Origin: Bacilli bacterium
GTDB lineage: Bacteria; Bacillota_I; Bacilli_A; RFN20; CAG-826
DNA: 64,000 nt
NCBI GenBank assembly: GCA_022482735.1
Contig: JAKVOO010000001.1
Coordinates: 902,837 to 966,836, forward strand
Reading direction: 5' to 3'
Part shown: positions 50,442 to 61,249 of the stretch, one piece after another
Layout: the number at the start of each line of letters is the position of its first letter
Position numbering within the stretch: position 1 is the stretch's first letter
The notes under the pieces: generated by a model
Seen by the model: the letters and a program-made list of their open reading frames with translations, nothing else
The model's database searches: none
Told to the model about the DNA's origin: nothing
Made by a program: the position numbers and the translations under genes

Positions 50442-51488
50442 TCATTTTCTTTTGTATCTCGCATCTTTAAAAGAACCATATTTTTCTATTTGCCCATCTT
50501 TAAGCATATTCGCTAAAACTCTTTCGATGGTTGAACCGCTGATATCGGGCACGATATCGATGATTTCTTGTTTCGACATTGGAAGGAGGCTGTTTAACAG
50601 CACCATTTTTATTCGTTCTTCTTTCTTTATTTTTTTAAGCCCAACTGTCGCTAATCGTTTTTCTAATTCCAAATAGCAATTATAGAGGGTGGTGATAAAG
50701 TTTTTAATGAAGTGCGAGTAATTATTATTGCCTTCTTCCCAGGATAGCGAAGAAAGTCTTAATGCTTCGTAGTAAGATCTCTTGTTCAGGTTTATTTGTT
50801 GTTCAAACGAGATGTATTTCCCAACATCATAATTGCTTTTGTACATGAGAAGCAAAGAAAGAAGTCTCGACATTCTTCCATTTCCATCGTCAAAAGGATG
50901 GATGCACAAAAAATCTAAGATGACACAAGGGATAAGAACAAGTGGATTAATATTGGAATCTTGTCTAGCGTCCATGTATGCCAAAACGAGTTGATTCATT
51001 GCTTCTGGGGTCTCTTCCGCATTCATTGGCTTAAATCTAAGTTTACGATTTCCGTTTTGTTCAATCTCAATAATAGCGTTGTCTTCTGTTTTATAATGTC
51101 CTCGAAATGGTGATCCACTTTGGGCGAGCATGATGTTATGAAGGCTAAGAATATCTTTCTCATCAAAGGATAAATTTTGATAATTTGTATGAACAATATT
51201 TAAGGCGTCTCGATAACCGGCAATCTCTTTTTCATTATGATTTAATGGCTCGGTTTTTTGTTCCATCAGTGCTTTAATTCTTTTGTCTGTTGTAACGATT
51301 CCCTCAATCGCGTTGCTTCCTTTAACCGATTGAACTTTGGCAATAGCGTTCAATTTATTAAATAACTCAGAATTAAGTGTTTTCTTTTCGTCTTCTTCTT
51401 TTTTCACCTCGTGAATGTAATTAGTAATATTTAATAGTTCAGATGGTAGATTGTCGTTTTTTAAGAAGGAATAATCAAATTTTCTCAT
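50442..51488 (-). CDS. Fic-family protein (class II) with C-terminal winged helix
   Basis: A 348-residue Fic protein: inhibitory motif SNAIEG (Ser58-Glu62-Gly63), complete catalytic motif HPFDDGNGR (His197 onward), the beta-hairpin flap near AIIEIEQNGNRKLRF and a C-terminal winged helix (MSKQEIIDIVPDISGSTIERVLANML). It should be an AMP-transferase type enzyme held off by its own helix. Two inverted repeats cover its promoter, and autoregulation through the winged helix is a reasonable guess. Confidence 0.87.
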   Translation of the reverse strand: MRKFDYSFLKNDNLPSELLNITNYIHEVKKEEDEKKTLNSELFNKLNAIAKVQSVKGSNAIEGIVTTDKRIKALMEQKTEPLNHNEKEIAGYRDALNIVHTNYQNLSFDEKDILSLHNIMLAQSGSPFRGHYKTEDNAIIEIEQNGNRKLRFKPMNAEETPEAMNQLVLAYMDARQDSNINPLVLIPCVILDFLCIHPFDDGNGRMSRLLSLLLMYKSNYDVGKYISFEQQINLNKRSYYEALRLSSLSWEEGNNNYSHFIKNFITTLYNCYLELEKRLATVGLKKIKKEERIKMVLLNSLLPMSKQEIIDIVPDISGSTIERVLANMLKDGQIEKYGSFKDARYKRK

Positions 51489-51501
51489 TGGTTTCTCCTT
51501 T

Positions 51502-51588
51502 TACTGCATTTATTTTACAATATTTGATGCAGTATTTCAACGGCGTGGGATTGTTTACTGCATTTTAATTAATGTTTTTGATGCAGTA
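51502..51588 (-). promoter_or_regulatory. fic promoter and two identical-geometry operators
   Basis: TACTGCAT-N17-ATGCAGTA occurs twice, at 51502-51534 and 51556-51588. On the minus strand a TTGAAA (51540-51535), 17-base spacer, TAAAAT (51517-51512) promoter lies across the first copy, so binding there would block transcription of the Fic gene. The identical arms and spacing show this is not chance. Confidence 0.7.
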
Positions 51589-51808
51589 TTCAATGTTGAA
51601 ATGAAGAAACAAACATATCGATTTGGGAACGAAAGACATATCCTATTCAAACTATGAGATAAAAAATAACAAAAAAATTGTCTTAGAAGGTGAAAATCTG
51701 ATATGAAGGACACTCCAAAAATGCAGGTTTAATTATTACTTGGGACTTTTTTAGTCTTCAAACGGATCTCATAAGCGGAAGTCATAAGGATTATTTCCAA
51801 TAAGAAAG
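51589..51808. other. intergenic region between the fic operators and the nuclease remnant
   Basis: No complete gene. On the plus strand a protein-like stretch ISYSNYEIKNNKKIVLEGEN (about 51640-51703) ends at a TGA and may be a remnant of a lost gene. Nothing else is recognised. Confidence 0.3.
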
Positions 51809-52288
51809 TCAATACGTTGCATTTAAAAACATTCTGGCATACAAATTTTCTTTTGTTGAATATGAATGATTTCTAAACCCATCAATTATTTGGGGAATTA
51901 GAGAATAGAAAGTATAGTTTTTCGAAAACATTCCTTTATCAAATTCCGCCTCAATAAAGTCGGCAAGGTCACCATAACTAACAAGTATGTAGACAGATTC
52001 CATTTTTGGATCTTCGACAATTATTTCTCGCTTTATTTCATTGATTCGATAATTTGGAACAACAGCAAAACATAAAGGATCAAAGGATTTCTTTTTAGCC
52101 CAATTGAAATAAGTTGATAATTGATTCGTGTTATCTTCAGGTCGAATTCCATTAAGACCGCTAAGCACTTTGTTTTCAATTACTATTCTTTGATTTTTGC
52201 TTTCAGCACAAACATCCATTCGACCATTAACTACTTTTGTTTCCTTAAACACCATAAAATGGCCCGTTGAGTCAAACGGCTTGCTTAT
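51809..52288 (-). pseudogene. C-terminal remnant of a PD-(D/E)XK nuclease
   Basis: The open frame from 52288 (after two stop codons) encodes SKPFDSTGHFMVFKETKVVN, then GRMDVCAESKNQRIVIENKV, which fits the PDDEXK_4 nuclease core (Asp, then Glu-x-Lys). A short ORF could start at 52255. The N-terminal part of the family is missing, so this is probably a non-functional fragment, though the catalytic residues persist. Confidence 0.5.
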
Positions 52289-53530: not shown

Positions 53531-54445
53531 TCAAAGAATATCCTTTAGCATTTTCTCTATGCACTTTTTCTTCTCGGCGTTATTTGGATGAACATAGAGA
53601 TTAAGCGTGGTTGTAATATTTGAATGACCTAGAATAACACTAACGGTCTTAACGCTGTTCTTCGCCTCAATACACCTTGTCGCGAAGCTATGTCTCAAAC
53701 CATGAAACTTGAGATAAGGGATTCCTAATTTCTTGATTGTTGCCTTGTAATAATTTCGATATGTTCTTGGTTCGATTGGCTTAACATCATTGCTCAAGAT
53801 AAAAAAATCCGAGTTCACGACTTTCATTAGTGGCCTAATTCTTTTCGTGAGCTCTCCACTCATAGGGATATCTCTATTCGATTCCTTGGTTTTTGGCTTG
53901 TCAACCAACACTTCTGTATATCTTTTTTCCCCATCAACATGGTAGATCCTTTGCACAGTATGCCTAACTTTGATTAAACCCTCATCCATGTCGATATCGC
54001 ACCACTTCAACGCGCATAGTTCACCGATTCTCATTCCTGTACACAAGCAAATAATCAATCCTAAATTTTTGAATGAGAAGTTTTCTTCAGCGTAAGTCAG
54101 TAGAGCCTTCTGATTGTCCTTGGACATAACCTTCAGTTCTTTCTTTTCAGATGTTCGTGGATAAACAATGTCAATTGGATTTAGATTCATTAGTTTCTGC
54201 TTGTTCCCGTACTTTTGAATCATCTTGATTACAACAACAATGTCCTTCACCGTTTTCTCAGATAGGCCCTCTTCTAATGCCTTCATGACATAATCCTGGA
54301 CATCCGATTCGACAAATTCTTCTTTTTCGCCAAAAAATGGAATAATGTGATTGTTTAATAAAAGGCAGTAAACAGAAAATGTCGATGTTTTCACAAACTG
54401 CTTTTTATTTTCCTTCCATAGATTAGCAACTTCTTTAATGACCAT
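53531..54445 (-). CDS. tyrosine recombinase beside the hsdS pair
   Basis: A 304-residue integrase with an N-terminal SAM-like core-binding domain (about 1-85) and a complete catalytic set: Arg139 (GMRIGEL), His248-x-x-Arg251 (HGLRHSF), His274 (LGHSN) and Tyr284 (LNLYVHP). GGAGG precedes the start. It is adjacent to a silent, inverted hsdS, the position of the invertases (CreX/PsrA type) that shuffle type I specificity genes in streptococci and relatives. An additional or alternative role in cassette integration at the flanking repeats cannot be excluded. Confidence 0.85.
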   Translation of the reverse strand: MVIKEVANLWKENKKQFVKTSTFSVYCLLLNNHIIPFFGEKEEFVESDVQDYVMKALEEGLSEKTVKDIVVVIKMIQKYGNKQKLMNLNPIDIVYPRTSEKKELKVMSKDNQKALLTYAEENFSFKNLGLIICLCTGMRIGELCALKWCDIDMDEGLIKVRHTVQRIYHVDGEKRYTEVLVDKPKTKESNRDIPMSGELTKRIRPLMKVVNSDFFILSNDVKPIEPRTYRNYYKATIKKLGIPYLKFHGLRHSFATRCIEAKNSVKTVSVILGHSNITTTLNLYVHPNNAEKKKCIEKMLKDIL

Positions 54446-54506
54446 ATTTTTTCCTCCTTATAGTCACCTTATATTTTAAAAAAAATATAGATACTTTTTA
54501 GGCTTT

Positions 54507-55679
54507 TTGGTCATTAATGTTCCTAATTTGAGATTTAAGTTTGACGGTGAGTGGAAAAGTTATTGCCTATCCGATGTCGTTAATAGAATTACTAGGAAAA
54601 ACAAAAACCAAGCATGCAAACTTCCTCTTACTATATCGGCCCAGTACGGTCTAATTGATCAAACCACATTTTTCGATAAAAAAGTGGCTAGCCAAAATCT
54701 TCAAAACTATTATTTGCTTCTTAAAGGAGATTTCGCTTATAACAAGAGCTATTCAAAAGATTATCCCTGGGGCGCTGTTAAAAAATTAAATTTTTACGAT
54801 GCTGGAGTAGTTTCAAACTTATATATTTGTTTTAGACCAAACGACAAAATTAATTCGTCTTTTTTAGAAATATATTTTGAAAGCGACAAATGGTATAAAC
54901 AGATTTCAGATATTGCCGGCGAAGGGGCGCGAAACCACGGATTACTTAATATGTCCACGCCTAATTTTTTCGAGACTAGGCACAGATTTCCTTGTGTCAA
55001 AGAACAAGTGGAAATCTCAGCATTTATAAAGAACATTGATGAGCGAATTGAAGTTCAAAACAAAATCATTAATGAATTAAGTTCTCTTAGCATCTCGATT
55101 AAAACAATCGTTTTTTCAAGGTGGATTCATTGTCCGAAAATTGCTATTGCTCATGTTGTTAAGGAATATGACGAAAAGACCGTTACTGATGATATGTATC
55201 CAGTTCTTTCATCAACGTCATCCGGACTTTACTTGCAAACGGATTATTTTAATAAAAACGCTTCGAGCGATTGCACTATTGGTTATAAGATTGTGCCATT
55301 TGGTTATTGCACATACAGATCAATGAGTGACACTGGAAATTTTAATTTTAACAAGCAAAACATTATTCAAAACGGCCTCGTCAGTCCTGCATATCCTGTT
55401 TTTTTGGTAGAAAAATGCTCGACAGATTTTTTGTTGGAATTGCTCAATAACAATGATGAAATAAAAAAACAAATAATGAAGCTTAAGTCTGGCGGAACAA
55501 GATTCTCGCTATCTTTTAAGAAACTATCTGAACTTAAAATTCCATGGCCGGACCAAAAAGAGAGAGAACAAGCAACTAGATTATTTGATTCAGTCAATAA
55601 ACAGCTAATTAATGAACGTATGCTGTTAGAATCATTAAAAAGAGAAAAGAGCTTCTTGCTAAGAAACCTTTTTATATAA
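54507..55679 (+). CDS. hsdS: second, inverted HsdS specificity subunit (probably silent cassette)
   Basis: A two-TRD specificity subunit of about 390 residues: NVPNLRF then TRD1, a conserved helix FIKNIDERIEVQNKIINEL near residues 173-191, TRD2, and a C-terminal helix ending LLRNLFI. No ATG or ribosome binding site precedes the conserved NVPNLRF; the only in-frame initiator is a TTG, and it lies exactly at an inverted repeat. It therefore looks like a silent store of target-recognition domains, to be exchanged with the convergent hsdS. Confidence 0.75.
   Translation: MVINVPNLRFKFDGEWKSYCLSDVVNRITRKNKNQACKLPLTISAQYGLIDQTTFFDKKVASQNLQNYYLLLKGDFAYNKSYSKDYPWGAVKKLNFYDAGVVSNLYICFRPNDKINSSFLEIYFESDKWYKQISDIAGEGARNHGLLNMSTPNFFETRHRFPCVKEQVEISAFIKNIDERIEVQNKIINELSSLSISIKTIVFSRWIHCPKIAIAHVVKEYDEKTVTDDMYPVLSSTSSGLYLQTDYFNKNASSDCTIGYKIVPFGYCTYRSMSDTGNFNFNKQNIIQNGLVSPAYPVFLVEKCSTDFLLELLNNNDEIKKQIMKLKSGGTRFSLSFKKLSELKIPWPDQKEREQATRLFDSVNKQLINERMLLESLKREKSFLLRNLFI
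54515..54536 (+). repeat. hsdS inverted repeat 1, left copy
   Basis: 22 bases at the 5' end of the silent hsdS, covering the codons for Asn-Val-Pro-Asn-Leu-Arg-Phe, identical to the reverse complement of 56776-56797. Confidence 0.85.
55053..55071 (+). repeat. hsdS inverted repeat 2, left copy
   Basis: 19 bases (GTTCAAAACAAAATCATTA) in the central conserved helix between the two recognition domains, identical to the reverse complement of 56289-56307. Confidence 0.85.
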
Positions 55680-56832
55680 ACAGGTTTTTTAAGAAATACT
55701 TTTTTTGTTCTTCTAAGCAGTTGAGCAGTTTGTTTTCAACGTCAATTATCTTGATGATTTGTTTTTCACAATTCACTATCTTTTCTTGAATTTCTTTGGG
55801 TGCAATAAGCAATTTGAAATTCTTAATGCTTTCGTAATAAAGATGGATAATTGTACTTCCTTGAGCAAATCTTGCCAGTTGTTTTCGATACTCGAAATTT
55901 ATAAGTAGACTTAAATAATCGCAATTAAAGCCTTCGTTCAAAGCAATGAAAAACATATCGCCTCCAAGAGATATATCCACAATCGATAGAGATGCCGGAG
56001 AAATTAAAGATAATGAATCAACTGTTGTGGAAGACGGAAACAAAAGATCATTTCCCTTACTTTTCGATGATATTTGTTTTTTTGTATGGCCAACAATGTC
56101 TTGAATAATTAGTGAGTAGTCAGTAAATAATTGTCCATAAATAATCGCTGGATATCCTTTAGAGGACATTTCGTCCCAGGATAAGGAATCGCAAGAATAA
56201 TAAGTTCCAATTTCATCAATACAGAATTCTTGTCCGCCTCCATCATTCATGCATTCAAATAGCGGTTTCATTAGCGATTTATAAGCACTAATGATTTTGT
56301 TTTGAACCACAATTCGTTCATCAATTAACGATAAAAATAGGGCAGTTTTCTTTTGCTCTTCTAAAGGAACTATTGCGATTTTCTTTTTAAGCATCCACCC
56401 TTTATCCCCTCGTGGCATTTTTGATCCTTTAGCATTTAGCATTATGTAATTGATAAACTTTTCGTTAGCCAAACAATAGAAGAAATAAAGCGGAAAAACT
56501 TTCTTGGGTTGGAAAACTAAAACGTCAGAGCTTGCACAGCCATCAAAAGCAGCAAAAAATACCTTTTTTAAGTATGGACGAATGTTTGCTACAAGAGTAT
56601 CGCCTCTCTTGAAATATGTCCCTTTTATTGGGATGTTTTCTGAGAATTTCTTACAACCTCCAAAGTCAGAAATTAAATTCTCAGTGCTAATGTAAAGTGT
56701 TTTTGGGAAAACTTTAGTAGTTTTTCTTAAGCCAGAAACGTCACTAATAATCGGCATTGAGATTAATCCAGTTCCAAATCTCAAATTAGGAACATTAGCG
56801 ACTTTCTTGTCTTTAGAATTCTCATTACTCAT
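55672..56832 (-). CDS. hsdS: type I restriction specificity subunit HsdS (expressed copy)
   Basis: The 386-residue subunit begins MSNENSKDKKVANVPNLRF, overlaps the end of hsdM by four bases and thus is the expressed copy. It has TRD1, the conserved helix LFLSLIDERIVVQNKIISA, TRD2 and the C-terminal helix ending FLKNLFI. It converges with the inverted hsdS, overlapping it by eight bases at their shared TTTATATAA end. It determines the DNA target of the HsdRMS complex. Confidence 0.87.
   Translation of the reverse strand: MSNENSKDKKVANVPNLRFGTGLISMPIISDVSGLRKTTKVFPKTLYISTENLISDFGGCKKFSENIPIKGTYFKRGDTLVANIRPYLKKVFFAAFDGCASSDVLVFQPKKVFPLYFFYCLANEKFINYIMLNAKGSKMPRGDKGWMLKKKIAIVPLEEQKKTALFLSLIDERIVVQNKIISAYKSLMKPLFECMNDGGGQEFCIDEIGTYYSCDSLSWDEMSSKGYPAIIYGQLFTDYSLIIQDIVGHTKKQISSKSKGNDLLFPSSTTVDSLSLISPASLSIVDISLGGDMFFIALNEGFNCDYLSLLINFEYRKQLARFAQGSTIIHLYYESIKNFKLLIAPKEIQEKIVNCEKQIIKIIDVENKLLNCLEEQKKYFLKNLFI
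56289..56307 (-). repeat. hsdS inverted repeat 2, right copy
   Basis: Partner of 55053-55071 in the central conserved region of the expressed hsdS. Recombination between these two would swap only the second recognition domain. Confidence 0.85.
56776..56797 (-). repeat. hsdS inverted repeat 1, right copy
   Basis: Partner of 54515-54536, near the 5' end of the expressed hsdS. Recombination here would exchange both recognition domains and leave the start codon in place. Confidence 0.85.
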
Positions 56833-58397
56833 AAGCCAAGTTCCTTCATATACTTGTCTATTTCCTTGTCAAGTTCATCGCGCTTTGATTCAAGCTCTTT
56901 GATTTCGGCCAGAACAGCGTGGATATCAATAGGCTCTTCCTCTTCAAAGGTATCAACATATCTAGGAATATTGAGGTTGTATTCGTTTTCTTTGATTTCC
57001 TCAAGTGTTGCCACGTGCATAAACTTGTCGATGTTTTTGCGATCTTTATAAGAATCAAGAATTCTTTGGATATCTTCTTCCCTAAGGTAATTCTGATTTT
57101 TTCCATTTTCAAAATATTTAGAAGCGTCTATGAAAACAATGTTCTCAGGATTCGTTCTGCATTTCTTTAATACCAAAATACACGTCGGAATGCTTGTTCC
57201 AAAGAATAGATTTGCAGGAAGCCCGATAACAGCATCTAGATAATTGTAGTCTTTGATTATTTTCGTTCGAATAACGCCTTCAGAGGAGCCTCTAAACAAA
57301 ACGCCATGTGGCAGAACCACCGCTAATGTTCCGCTATCTGAAAGATGATAAATCATATGTTCCACAAATGCGTAATCAGCTTTAGAAGAAGGAGCGTATT
57401 TGCCATCATAGCCATTGAAACGAGAGTCCTCTTCTTTTCCAGCTGGCTCCCATTTCGCGGAATATGGTGGATTAGCCACTACTGCATCGAATTTTAAAGG
57501 TTTATGTCTTTCCGCTGGCTTTTCCAAGGTATCGTCATTGGCTATGTCAAACTTCTCGTAGTCAACCCCGTGTAGAAGCATATTCATTCTGGCCAAGTTA
57601 TAAGTCGTTGTGACCATTTCTTGCCCATAGATTTTTAAGGCTTGTGGGTTTGCAACATTGCTTCTAACTCTTAAAAGAAGGGAGCCGGAACCACATGTTG
57701 GATCGTAAACAGTTTTTAAGTTATTATTTTCCAAGGTAACAATTCTTGCCAACAATTCAGATACTTGGGCAGGAGTATAGAACTCTCCAGCCTTTTTGCC
57801 AGCACTCGCTGCGAACTTGCCAATAAGGTATTCGTAAGCATGCCCAAGCACATCGAAATTGGTTTCAGACAAGTCAAGATTAAGGTCATTGATTTTAAGG
57901 ATTATCTTCCCGATGAGTTTACTTCTTTCGGCCTCACCCTTCCCTAATTTGTTGTTATCTAAATCCATGTCTTCAAATAGATCAGCGAAATCCTTTTGAG
58001 ATTCAGCTCCAATCGTTGATGAGGTAATGGCCTTAATACCTTCTTTGAGATCTTCGACCGTAAAGTGATTAATGTTTATTTTTTCTACGAAACTCTCAAA
58101 AAGGAATGATGGGTCTAAGAAATATCCAATCGTCCTAATTGACAGCTCTTTAATATCGTCTCTCATGCTTGTGTCTTTCCAAGCAGAATCAAAAGTCAGC
58201 CCATCATCTTTGAGTTCATCGTTGATGGTTTTCACAATCTTGTTTGACAAGAATTTATAGAAAATTAGGCCAAGAATATAGTTTTTGAACTCACTGGCTT
58301 CCATTGAGCCTCTGAGCTCATTCGCCATCGCCCACAGTTTTGTGTCAACTTCGCCTTGTTGCCTTGCTAGCAACTCGTCTTTATCAATTTCTGGCAT
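56829..58397 (-). CDS. hsdM: type I restriction modification DNA methyltransferase HsdM
   Basis: A 522-residue N6-adenine methyltransferase with the HsdM N-terminal helical domain (LWAMANELRGSMEASEFKNYI), S-adenosylmethionine motif I DPTCGSGS (232-239) and the catalytic NPPY (309-312). A C-terminal coiled coil (ELESKRDELDKEIDKYMKEL) contacts HsdS in the family. It lies 11 bases after hsdR. Confidence 0.95.
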   Translation of the reverse strand: MPEIDKDELLARQQGEVDTKLWAMANELRGSMEASEFKNYILGLIFYKFLSNKIVKTINDELKDDGLTFDSAWKDTSMRDDIKELSIRTIGYFLDPSFLFESFVEKININHFTVEDLKEGIKAITSSTIGAESQKDFADLFEDMDLDNNKLGKGEAERSKLIGKIILKINDLNLDLSETNFDVLGHAYEYLIGKFAASAGKKAGEFYTPAQVSELLARIVTLENNNLKTVYDPTCGSGSLLLRVRSNVANPQALKIYGQEMVTTTYNLARMNMLLHGVDYEKFDIANDDTLEKPAERHKPLKFDAVVANPPYSAKWEPAGKEEDSRFNGYDGKYAPSSKADYAFVEHMIYHLSDSGTLAVVLPHGVLFRGSSEGVIRTKIIKDYNYLDAVIGLPANLFFGTSIPTCILVLKKCRTNPENIVFIDASKYFENGKNQNYLREEDIQRILDSYKDRKNIDKFMHVATLEEIKENEYNLNIPRYVDTFEEEEPIDIHAVLAEIKELESKRDELDKEIDKYMKELGL

Positions 58398-58408
58398 AAT
58401 TTAACCTC

Positions 58409-61249
58409 CTAGTTATGCATGGAATATTTATCAGCAATTTCGATGATGTGGTTTTTGATTTCTTCCATCAGTTCGTTGGTCGCTTTAATTGGATTTAGAT
58501 CAGGATGTTTCTCTCTATACCTTTCCTTTACTCTCTTGTTTAGCAACGATTTGATATCGGTATAGTCAATCGTCATAAAGTAGTCGTATCTGTTGAGAAG
58601 TTTTTCAAGAGCTTCGTAGGAAATGAGCAAATCATCCGATATTGTTGACAAAGTTTCTTTTCGTTTTTCTTCAATATATTTTGCTAATTCATCATCTACC
58701 GACGCTCCCTCGGCAAGAGTTGGGAACACGTTCGTTATAAACGATTCCAACAATTCTCTTTTACTAACCAATATTGGATCAGTGGATCTTCGAAGAATAT
58801 TAATAATCGCCGATATGTCAACCTTGGTTCCTCCGACCGTTCCAAGTTTCCTAAGCAGATTCAGAATGTAATCTACATCTACCTTATCGGTTTGAACCAA
58901 TTCAATGTCAAACGTGACCTCACCAATAACAGAAACCTTCTCAGGATGCTTCTTAAAATCGTTATAGATTTCCAAATACCTTGATTTAAATGAATTGTAT
59001 TCGTCTGGAGTAATATCATCCTTCAATGTAATTGGGAAAGAAAATTCGCAAAAGTTTTGAAGGCAGATTAAATATCTCGCTACTTTCCTGAATCTATTTA
59101 CAAATTCAATCTTTGCTGTATCGCCTTCAAGAGAGTCGACGTCATCAGGCGTTATTGTGTATGAACGCAAATTCTTTAAAGTGTCTCTAAATAGGTCTAG
59201 ATACTCCTCAAATGATTTCATGAGGACAATTCCGTGGTCTTCTTGAGAATATAATGCCACTGCTTTCTCAACGTCTTTAGGAGTTGTGCGGTAGCAGATA
59301 ATGTTTCCAAATTGTTTTGCTGAGCAATCAAGTCTGTTCGTCCTTGAAAAAGCTTGGATTAATCCATGGTATTTAAGTGACTTGTCTAAGAACAATGCGT
59401 TGATTCGTTTTGAGTCAAAACCGGTCAGCATCATGTTAACAACAAGAATCAATTCAACCTTGCCTTCCCTAAATGCGTCTCTTACATCCTCAAAATACTC
59501 TGAGCAGTTGGCAATCGAATAGTTTTTCCCAACCACTTTTGAATAGTCGTCCATTACGTATTGAAGCGATTGCTGAGCCAGCCTTTCGTTTGTTCCTACT
59601 TCTTCGGTGTCAATGCTGTTTGGCGAGTAGGTAAATATTGTGGCAATCTTTATTTTCTGGTTCTCTTCAAGTGCTTCGTTTTGTTTCTTTAACTCATCAT
59701 AATATTTCATCAATAAATCGATGCTTGAGACGGCAAATATCGCGTTGTACTTTCTGTTGACGGTAAGCTTATCAAAATTATCTATAATGTGCTTTGATAT
59801 ATTAGTTATTCTTGTTGGAGAATTAATAAGCTCGTCTTCGTCGATTGCTTCCACTTGTTCGTCTTTTCCAACCTTTGTGACGATATCAATTGTTTTGAAA
59901 TACTGAACATTAAAACCCAATACCATGTGGGCGTTAATCGCATCTTTGATTTTATATGAATGAACAGGCTTCCCACCAAATATTGCTTCAGTAGTCAATC
60001 CAGTTGCATTCATGTTTTCGGCAAAAATTGGCGTTCCTGTAAAACCGAACATCTGAGCAGAAGGGAAAGCTCTCAAAATATGCTTTCTCATTTCACCGAA
60101 ATTACTTCTGTGGCATTCATCAATAATGAAGATTGTTGTGTCTTTATTTTTTTCAACTGTCGATTCAAATCTAGGATTCGTACATAGATTAGACATTTTT
60201 TGGATGGTTGTTGTAATCATCTTCACTGATGAATCCCCGAAAAATTTATTCAGTTTTCTTGAATCGCCGACATTTACAACAGCGTCTTTTTCAAACGAGT
60301 TAAAATTTCTTACTGTTTGTCTATCCAAATCTCTTCTATCAACAAGAAAAACAACCTTTGAGAACTTTCCTGTATCTCGGAGACACTGAGCCAACTTAAA
60401 ACTTGTTAAGGTTTTTCCACTTCCAGTTGTGTGCCATACGAATCCGTTGTTTTTTGTATTCAGGGCTCTATCGACTAGGTTTTCAACAGCCCAGATTTGA
60501 TATGGCCTAAGAATCATTAAATCACGCTCGGTTTGATTGATGACAATATAATTTGAGATGGTTCTACAAATATTGCATCGCGTCAGTCTATCCATCGCAA
60601 ATTCATTTAGTCTGTTGACCATCACATTGTTAGGATCGGACCAAGTAAAAACATTCTCTTTTTTGAATGCTCTATCGCTGTTGGCAAAATATTTGGTCAT
60701 GGAACCATTTGAAATAATGAAGAATTGGATATATTTGAATATTCCTTTATAAACAGTCCTTCTATATCTTTCAATTTGCCCAAACGCCTCTGCTAGGGTT
60801 ATACCATTTTTCTTTAATTCTATTTGAACCAAAGGAAGTCCGTTGACGAGAATCGTAACATCAAACCTCCCGGCAAATTCGTTTGTTTGGTTTATTTGAT
60901 GTGCCACTTGAACGATATTTCTGCACCAGTCGTTCTTCTCAAAAATCTTTATGTTTTTCTTTTCGCCATTGTCCATGGTTATGGTTTGCATCTGACGAAG
61001 ATTAATAGCGCATTTATATACCGTATTGTATTTTTCCAGTTCGTTAACGAATCGCCTAAACTCAGTATCGCTTAGACATATTCCATTAAGTCTATCTATT
61101 TGTTTTCGTAAATTCTTATATAAAGAAGAATCGTCGTGAACGCTTACAAAAGCATCCTCAGATTCCGAGGAATGAAATTGTTGACGAAGCTGTTTTATTA
61201 ACTCGTTTTCAAGTTCTAATTCGGTTTGTTCGCCGGTTATGTTAGGCAT
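58409..61249 (-). CDS. hsdR: type I restriction endonuclease subunit HsdR
   Basis: A 946-residue motor-nuclease: N-terminal PD-(D/E)XK nuclease with Asp130 and Glu144-x-Lys146, translocase Walker A TGSGKT (275-280), DECH box (377-380) and later SF2 motifs (MMLTGFDSKRINALFLDK, IQAFSRTNR). Lengths and motifs look complete, so restriction activity is likely. It follows the XRE-type regulator by one base and starts the hsdR-hsdM-hsdS order. Confidence 0.95.
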   Translation of the reverse strand: MPNITGEQTELELENELIKQLRQQFHSSESEDAFVSVHDDSSLYKNLRKQIDRLNGICLSDTEFRRFVNELEKYNTVYKCAINLRQMQTITMDNGEKKNIKIFEKNDWCRNIVQVAHQINQTNEFAGRFDVTILVNGLPLVQIELKKNGITLAEAFGQIERYRRTVYKGIFKYIQFFIISNGSMTKYFANSDRAFKKENVFTWSDPNNVMVNRLNEFAMDRLTRCNICRTISNYIVINQTERDLMILRPYQIWAVENLVDRALNTKNNGFVWHTTGSGKTLTSFKLAQCLRDTGKFSKVVFLVDRRDLDRQTVRNFNSFEKDAVVNVGDSRKLNKFFGDSSVKMITTTIQKMSNLCTNPRFESTVEKNKDTTIFIIDECHRSNFGEMRKHILRAFPSAQMFGFTGTPIFAENMNATGLTTEAIFGGKPVHSYKIKDAINAHMVLGFNVQYFKTIDIVTKVGKDEQVEAIDEDELINSPTRITNISKHIIDNFDKLTVNRKYNAIFAVSSIDLLMKYYDELKKQNEALEENQKIKIATIFTYSPNSIDTEEVGTNERLAQQSLQYVMDDYSKVVGKNYSIANCSEYFEDVRDAFREGKVELILVVNMMLTGFDSKRINALFLDKSLKYHGLIQAFSRTNRLDCSAKQFGNIICYRTTPKDVEKAVALYSQEDHGIVLMKSFEEYLDLFRDTLKNLRSYTITPDDVDSLEGDTAKIEFVNRFRKVARYLICLQNFCEFSFPITLKDDITPDEYNSFKSRYLEIYNDFKKHPEKVSVIGEVTFDIELVQTDKVDVDYILNLLRKLGTVGGTKVDISAIINILRRSTDPILVSKRELLESFITNVFPTLAEGASVDDELAKYIEEKRKETLSTISDDLLISYEALEKLLNRYDYFMTIDYTDIKSLLNKRVKERYREKHPDLNPIKATNELMEEIKNHIIEIADKYSMHN

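Follow-up and report, generated by a model that had tools for sequence, protein, structure and literature searches.

A probable recombinase-driven, four-way hsdS inversion switch in a small-genome Bacilli lineage

Introduction

The locus described here places a second specificity gene and a tyrosine recombinase gene next to a type I restriction-modification operon, which raises the question of whether these genes form a switch that changes the specificity of the system. It lies in a stretch of 64,000 nucleotides from a Bacilli bacterium (assembly GCA_022482735.1, contig JAKVOO010000001.1, positions 902,837 to 966,836), the whole of which is called the window and to which all positions refer. 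With high confidence, the locus is read as a recombinase-driven four-way inversion switch of hsdS.

The Type I Locus and Its Neighbourhood

A complete type I restriction-modification operon is encoded on the minus strand. It consists of hsdR (58409-61249), coding for a restriction subunit of 946 amino acids (TIGR00348, 1.7e-127, above the cut-off; REase_I, 1.8e-241), hsdM (56829-58397), coding for an adenine methyltransferase subunit of 522 amino acids with intact NPPY motif and motif I (TIGR00497, 3e-130, above the cut-off), and hsdS (55672-56832), coding for a specificity subunit of 386 amino acids, which was assigned from its sequence and a Methylase_S match (8.6e-16). The ATG of hsdS overlaps the stop codon of hsdM (ATGA). 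Convergent to this operon lies a second specificity gene with two recognition domains, hsdS' (54507-55679, plus strand; assigned from its sequence and matches to Methylase_S and to Specificity_I, 9e-70), which meets hsdS tail to tail with an overlap of eight bases. hsdS' lacks an ATG and could start in frame only at a TTG (54507), which is not preceded by a clear Shine-Dalgarno sequence, and a consensus scan found no promoter-like site reading into the start of hsdS'. The TTG could allow low-level expression, and in Streptococcus suis, downstream hsdS genes do contribute (PMC10790761).

The sequence-only reading had placed a complete tyrosine recombinase beside the copy that lacks a start codon, and this description was borne out: the gene (53531-54445, minus strand) has its own Shine-Dalgarno sequence and encodes a full-length protein of 304 amino acids with Phage_integrase (Pfam, 3.2e-31) and Phage_int_SAM_3 matches. 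It lies outside the segment that would invert, with its 5' side facing hsdS' and its 3' side free of hsdS. Its motifs TGMRIGEL, KPKTKES, HGLRH, LGHSN and LNLYVHP align with the Tn1549-type Int (PDB 6emy), by which alignment the catalytic R-K-HxxR-H-Y residues are all present, and its catalytic motifs also align with two further Int structures, 6en0 and 6emz.

Beside the locus, a short PD-(D/E)XK nuclease-like open reading frame (51809-52255), which weakly matches the candidate defence family PDC-S26, is probably a fragment. Within 50442-51590, a Fic-domain gene (SoFic-like) is preceded by two 37-base repeats (51500-51536 and 51554-51590), each of which ends in TACTGCAT...ATGCAGTA; these are putative autoregulatory operators, a possible assignment. 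Between 45 and 64 kb of the window, no matches to Rfam families were found.

Two Pairs of Short Inverted Repeats

Coordinates and exact matches confirm the earlier description of two convergent hsdS genes sharing perfect inverted repeats of 22 and 19 bases. Repeat 1 (IR1), TAATGTTCCTAATTTGAGATTT, occupies 54515-54536 on the plus strand of hsdS' and 56776-56797 on the minus strand of hsdS, and repeat 2 (IR2), GTTCAAAACAAAATCATTA, occupies 55053-55071 on the plus strand of hsdS' and 56289-56307 on the minus strand of hsdS. Their reported location at the starts and centres of the genes could be sharpened: repeat 1 encodes the N-terminal motif NVPNLRF and precedes the first recognition domain, and repeat 2 encodes the central conserved motif VQNKII and sits between the two domains, with the frame being identical in both genes. 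These are the longest exact inverted matches between hsdS and hsdS', followed by an A-rich run of 13 bp; in base-shuffled copies, the longest inverted match did not exceed 12 bp (mean 10.6 in 30 shuffles).

VPxLRF-type starts are common in hsdS genes, and both repeats fall within conserved HsdS motifs. It could thus be argued that the repeats reflect nothing but protein conservation (NVPNLRF, VQNKII) in two paralogous genes. However, thirteen codons show no synonymous difference between hsdS and hsdS'. When the two genes are treated as unrelated codings of the same residues under the codon usage of the window, identical codons have a probability of about 0.0015 for repeat 1 and about 0.01 for repeat 2. 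Moreover, when 273 genomes of the order were searched with a degenerate form of the repeat-1 peptide, the same codon form, AATGTTCCYAATTTRAGATTY (once with AAC-), turned up in seven of them (G000, G112, G092, G219, G016, G217 and G124), whereas the other matches, counted whether or not they lie in hsdS, used different synonymous codons. A related type I operon is found in all seven genomes, four of which (G000, G112, G092 and G219) also have the recombinase; no close homologue of it was found in G016, G217 and G124, whose contigs end near the repeat or the type I operon. Conservation of the protein alone is therefore considered extremely improbable.

The claim that exchange at the repeats combines two first and two second recognition domains held when the exchanges were computed. 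Exchange at repeat 1, at repeat 2 or at both yields open HsdS proteins of 399, 383 and 402 amino acids, respectively, in addition to the present form of 386, giving four full-length open proteins. The species is represented by a single assembly, which shows one orientation. A search for the second orientation in this genome by means of repeat 1 did not find it; in the whole 1.5 Mb, the repeat-1 core has exactly two occurrences, both at this locus. The single orientation and the lack of an ATG in the silent copy would also suit a degenerate duplicate, which was formerly invertible and is now locked. This is very unlikely, since neither the genes nor the two repeats are damaged, each of the four isoforms is open, and silent donor copies are expected to lack a start codon (PMC7394358).

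Relatives of the Recombinase

The eight closest homologues that were found for the recombinase (62-74% identity; G029, G219, G081, G740, G249, G112, G092 and G529), which come from several families, all adjoin hsdS sequence with the same repeat types, and in each case hsdS lies on the side of the recombinase that corresponds to the 5' side in the window. Repeat-1-type hsdS starts are found next to the recombinase in G029, G219, G081, G112, G092 and G529; in G740, repeat 1 is likewise next to it, in an array of four hsdS genes. The layout is kept in two complete genomes, namely that of G740 and the one-contig genome G436 (recombinase identity 52%), which has two hsdS genes with repeats of 21 bp each.

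This linkage bears on the proposal that general homologous recombination or rare gene conversion alone makes use of the repeats and that the recombinase is an unrelated, adjacent integrase remnant. Pneumococcal repeats of 85 bp and more recombine without a local recombinase, according to PMC6620402 as cited in PMC10790761. Repeats of 19-22 bp, however, are too short for efficient homologous recombination; the 14-bp repeats of S. suis need the local recombinase (PMC10790761), as does the pneumococcal 15-bp IR1, which needs PsrA (PMC4948785). Together with the conserved recombinase-repeat linkage, this leaves only a small chance for the proposal, and the recombinase is likely to be the DNA invertase of the hsdS segment, as predicted here.

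The locus of G740 (L078:4280-9754) belongs to a complete genome of 0.8 Mb, in which hsdM and hsdR contain in-frame TGA codons, so that TGA likely encodes tryptophan. Its hsdM is 86% identical to that of the window and its recombinase 70%, and the cassette has likely been transferred horizontally. Its four hsdS copies form two convergent pairs, which would permit up to 16 domain combinations. Recombinase homologues with 46-47% identity are found in Candidatus Phytoplasma luffae (L039) and Ca. P. vitis (L040), where they adjoin inverted hsdS copies with inverted repeats of 72/32 bp and 48-412 bp, and several genes at these loci look broken; a literature search on phytoplasma hsdS found no paper describing such inversion loci. 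In G111 (L049:9491-11884) and G066 (L045:68-114), homologues with 43-47% identity are accompanied by a different repeat, TAATCAACAAGATTAAGGAT, which in G111 occurs four times around several hsdS-like open reading frames and makes this locus a multi-cassette variant. A tblastn search of plasmids retrieved homologues of up to 55% identity, and in the two annotated neighbourhoods inspected (Bacteroides, Ruminococcus), no hsdS was found nearby.

Assembly Breaks at the Repeats

In several draft assemblies of relatives, contigs end exactly at the short repeats or crossover points. As assembler k-mers are much longer than these repeats (16-26 bp), repetition by itself ought not to interrupt a contig, whereas alternative read junctions would. 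Contig 8 of G254 stops at the final base of its 20-bp repeat 2, and contig 15 of G029 stops at the last shared base of repeat 1. In G092, the contigs of the hsdM side and of the silent side share exactly 77 terminal bases, beginning inside repeat 1, and one first domain is preceded by the hsdM side and also by the silent-copy side. Counted from the GTTCC of repeat 1, contigs of G124 and G529 reach 75 and 73 bases into the domain, respectively, before they end, and their terminal 77-mers begin within this repeat. On contig 39 of G029, one first domain is joined via repeat 2 to two different second domains, with the second junction running to the contig end after 141 identical bases. Assemblers commonly use k values of 77 and 141. 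Breaks at which one recognition domain is joined to two partners, as in G092 and G029, are as expected of mixed orientations and support the inversion reading indirectly; the contig overlaps in these two genomes could instead stem from duplicated recognition domains or co-existing strains. Breaks of this kind in metagenome assemblies can reveal mixed orientations.

Proposed Mechanism and Known Systems

The inversion reading is supported by the anatomy of the locus, the in-frame repeats, the open isoforms, the conserved linkage of recombinase and repeats and the assembly breaks in relatives. According to the proposed mechanism, hsdR, hsdM and the hsdM-adjacent hsdS would be expressed, and the convergent hsdS' would serve as a silent donor. 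The adjacent tyrosine recombinase, as the presumed catalyst, would invert the DNA between paired short repeats: exchange at repeat 1 would swap both recognition domains, and exchange at repeat 2 only the second domain and the C-terminus. The expressed slot could then hold any of four HsdS proteins, which would give several methylation and restriction specificities in the population. This strain presumably inverts the segment, and gene regulation would change accordingly.

The locus is a clear further instance of a switch that other bacteria are known to have, because its layout is that of four-way inverting type I systems and it would work like the pneumococcal PsrA locus. Inverting type I systems were surveyed in REBASE by Atack et al. 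(2020, PMC7394358), who reported four-way forms in S. suis, Actinobacillus pleuropneumoniae and Mannheimia haemolytica. Like these, the present locus has two hsdS genes, the second of which is located downstream on the opposite strand without an ATG, one repeat ahead of the 5' recognition domain and another separating the two domains, four isoforms and a recombinase gene within the locus. Unlike these, its host belongs to a small-genome Bacilli lineage, and four-way switching is read from the sequence. At 19 bp, repeat 2 misses by 1 bp the minimum length of 20 bp for which that survey searched. The pneumococcal cod/SpnIII locus with PsrA (CreX) shares the tyrosine recombinase in the locus and the silent hsdS donors (PMC4948785, PMC7096588); its short repeat needs the recombinase, and its second repeats are reported to contain IR1-like sequence. 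It differs in that it comprises three hsdS genes with three repeats, of 15, 85 and 298 bp, compared with two genes and two short repeats here. SsuCC20p of streptococci has very short repeats of 14 bp that depend on the recombinase of the locus (PMC10790761); both of its repeat sets are identical, whereas repeats 1 and 2 differ here. With 22 and 19 bp, the repeats exceed the functional 14-15 bp repeats of known systems. In a related low-GC group, oppositely oriented hsdS genes at the hsd loci of Mycoplasma pulmonis recombine at inverted repeats, a likeness drawn from the description in PMC11062135.

A Possible Shared Site and an Invertible Cytosine Methyltransferase

The two repeats may be variants of one type of recombinase site. 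The form of repeat 1 across relatives is AATGTTCCtaATTTGAGATTt, and that of reversed repeat 2 is AATGATTTTGTTTTGAGTtTC; the outer positions agree, and the centres differ, the 7-bp centre being GTTCCYA in repeat 1 and GATTTTG in reversed repeat 2. When relatives are included, the reverse match is higher at zero offset than at any other of the 50 offsets compared (47.6%, against a mean of 29.5%, sd 5.2). In the window alone, repeat 1 and reversed repeat 2 match at 12 of 19 positions, which was reached by 2314 of 20000 shuffles and is not significant, and for this reason, the shared site is put forward as a hypothesis. A reading of the sites as palindromes (11-7-11) was weak, as its best value, 8 of 11 in the repeat-1 majority, was equalled at another spacing.

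In G249, reversed repeat 2 lies next to the recombinase (L068:6120-6299), where the other relatives have repeat 1; the flank resembles its counterpart in G081 as far as AAT(G), after which the sequence is that of reversed repeat 2. To judge from its sequence, this arrangement is apparently the product of cross-recombination between repeat 1 and repeat 2. These observations are suggestive of one enzyme that may act on both repeats, with identity of the centres favouring exchange of like with like. The idea of shared arms resembles the situation in pneumococcus, where IR2 and IR3 are reported to need IR1-like sequences (PMC7096588).

In two distant relatives, G125 (L047:6262-7532) and G123 (L048:7316-8592), recombinase homologues with 41-43% identity adjoin a segment of about 400 bp between perfect inverted repeats of 18/19 bp, TAAGCAGGATGCTTAAGG(A). 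The segment encodes, in reversed orientation, the first 129 amino acids of a C5-cytosine methyltransferase (Pfam positions 2-103); it points away from the rest of the gene, which covers Pfam positions 97-323. The methyltransferase gene is apparently ON/OFF invertible and would at present be OFF; a literature search found no such case of an invertible C5-cytosine methyltransferase. The combined proposal, that one type of site, with common outer arms and exchangeable 7-bp centres, separates the two hsdS inversions and that related enzymes have been reused for other DNA methyltransferase genes, including an ON/OFF C5-cytosine methyltransferase, is held tentatively, as a possibility somewhat short of probable.

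Significance

Less expected, beyond the known type of switch, are the shared-site idea and the wider recombinase family, in particular the apparently invertible cytosine methyltransferase gene beside two of its more distant members. With two repeats and one recombinase, the system is compact and lets its site logic, in which one enzyme would carry out two separate inversions, be tested directly. Related loci occur in a genome with a likely reassigned code (TGA = Trp) and in phytoplasmas. Cells carrying the present locus probably swap among four methylation patterns. Bacteria that set their methylome through programmed DNA inversion would then include a Bacilli lineage that is mostly uncultured and has small genomes.
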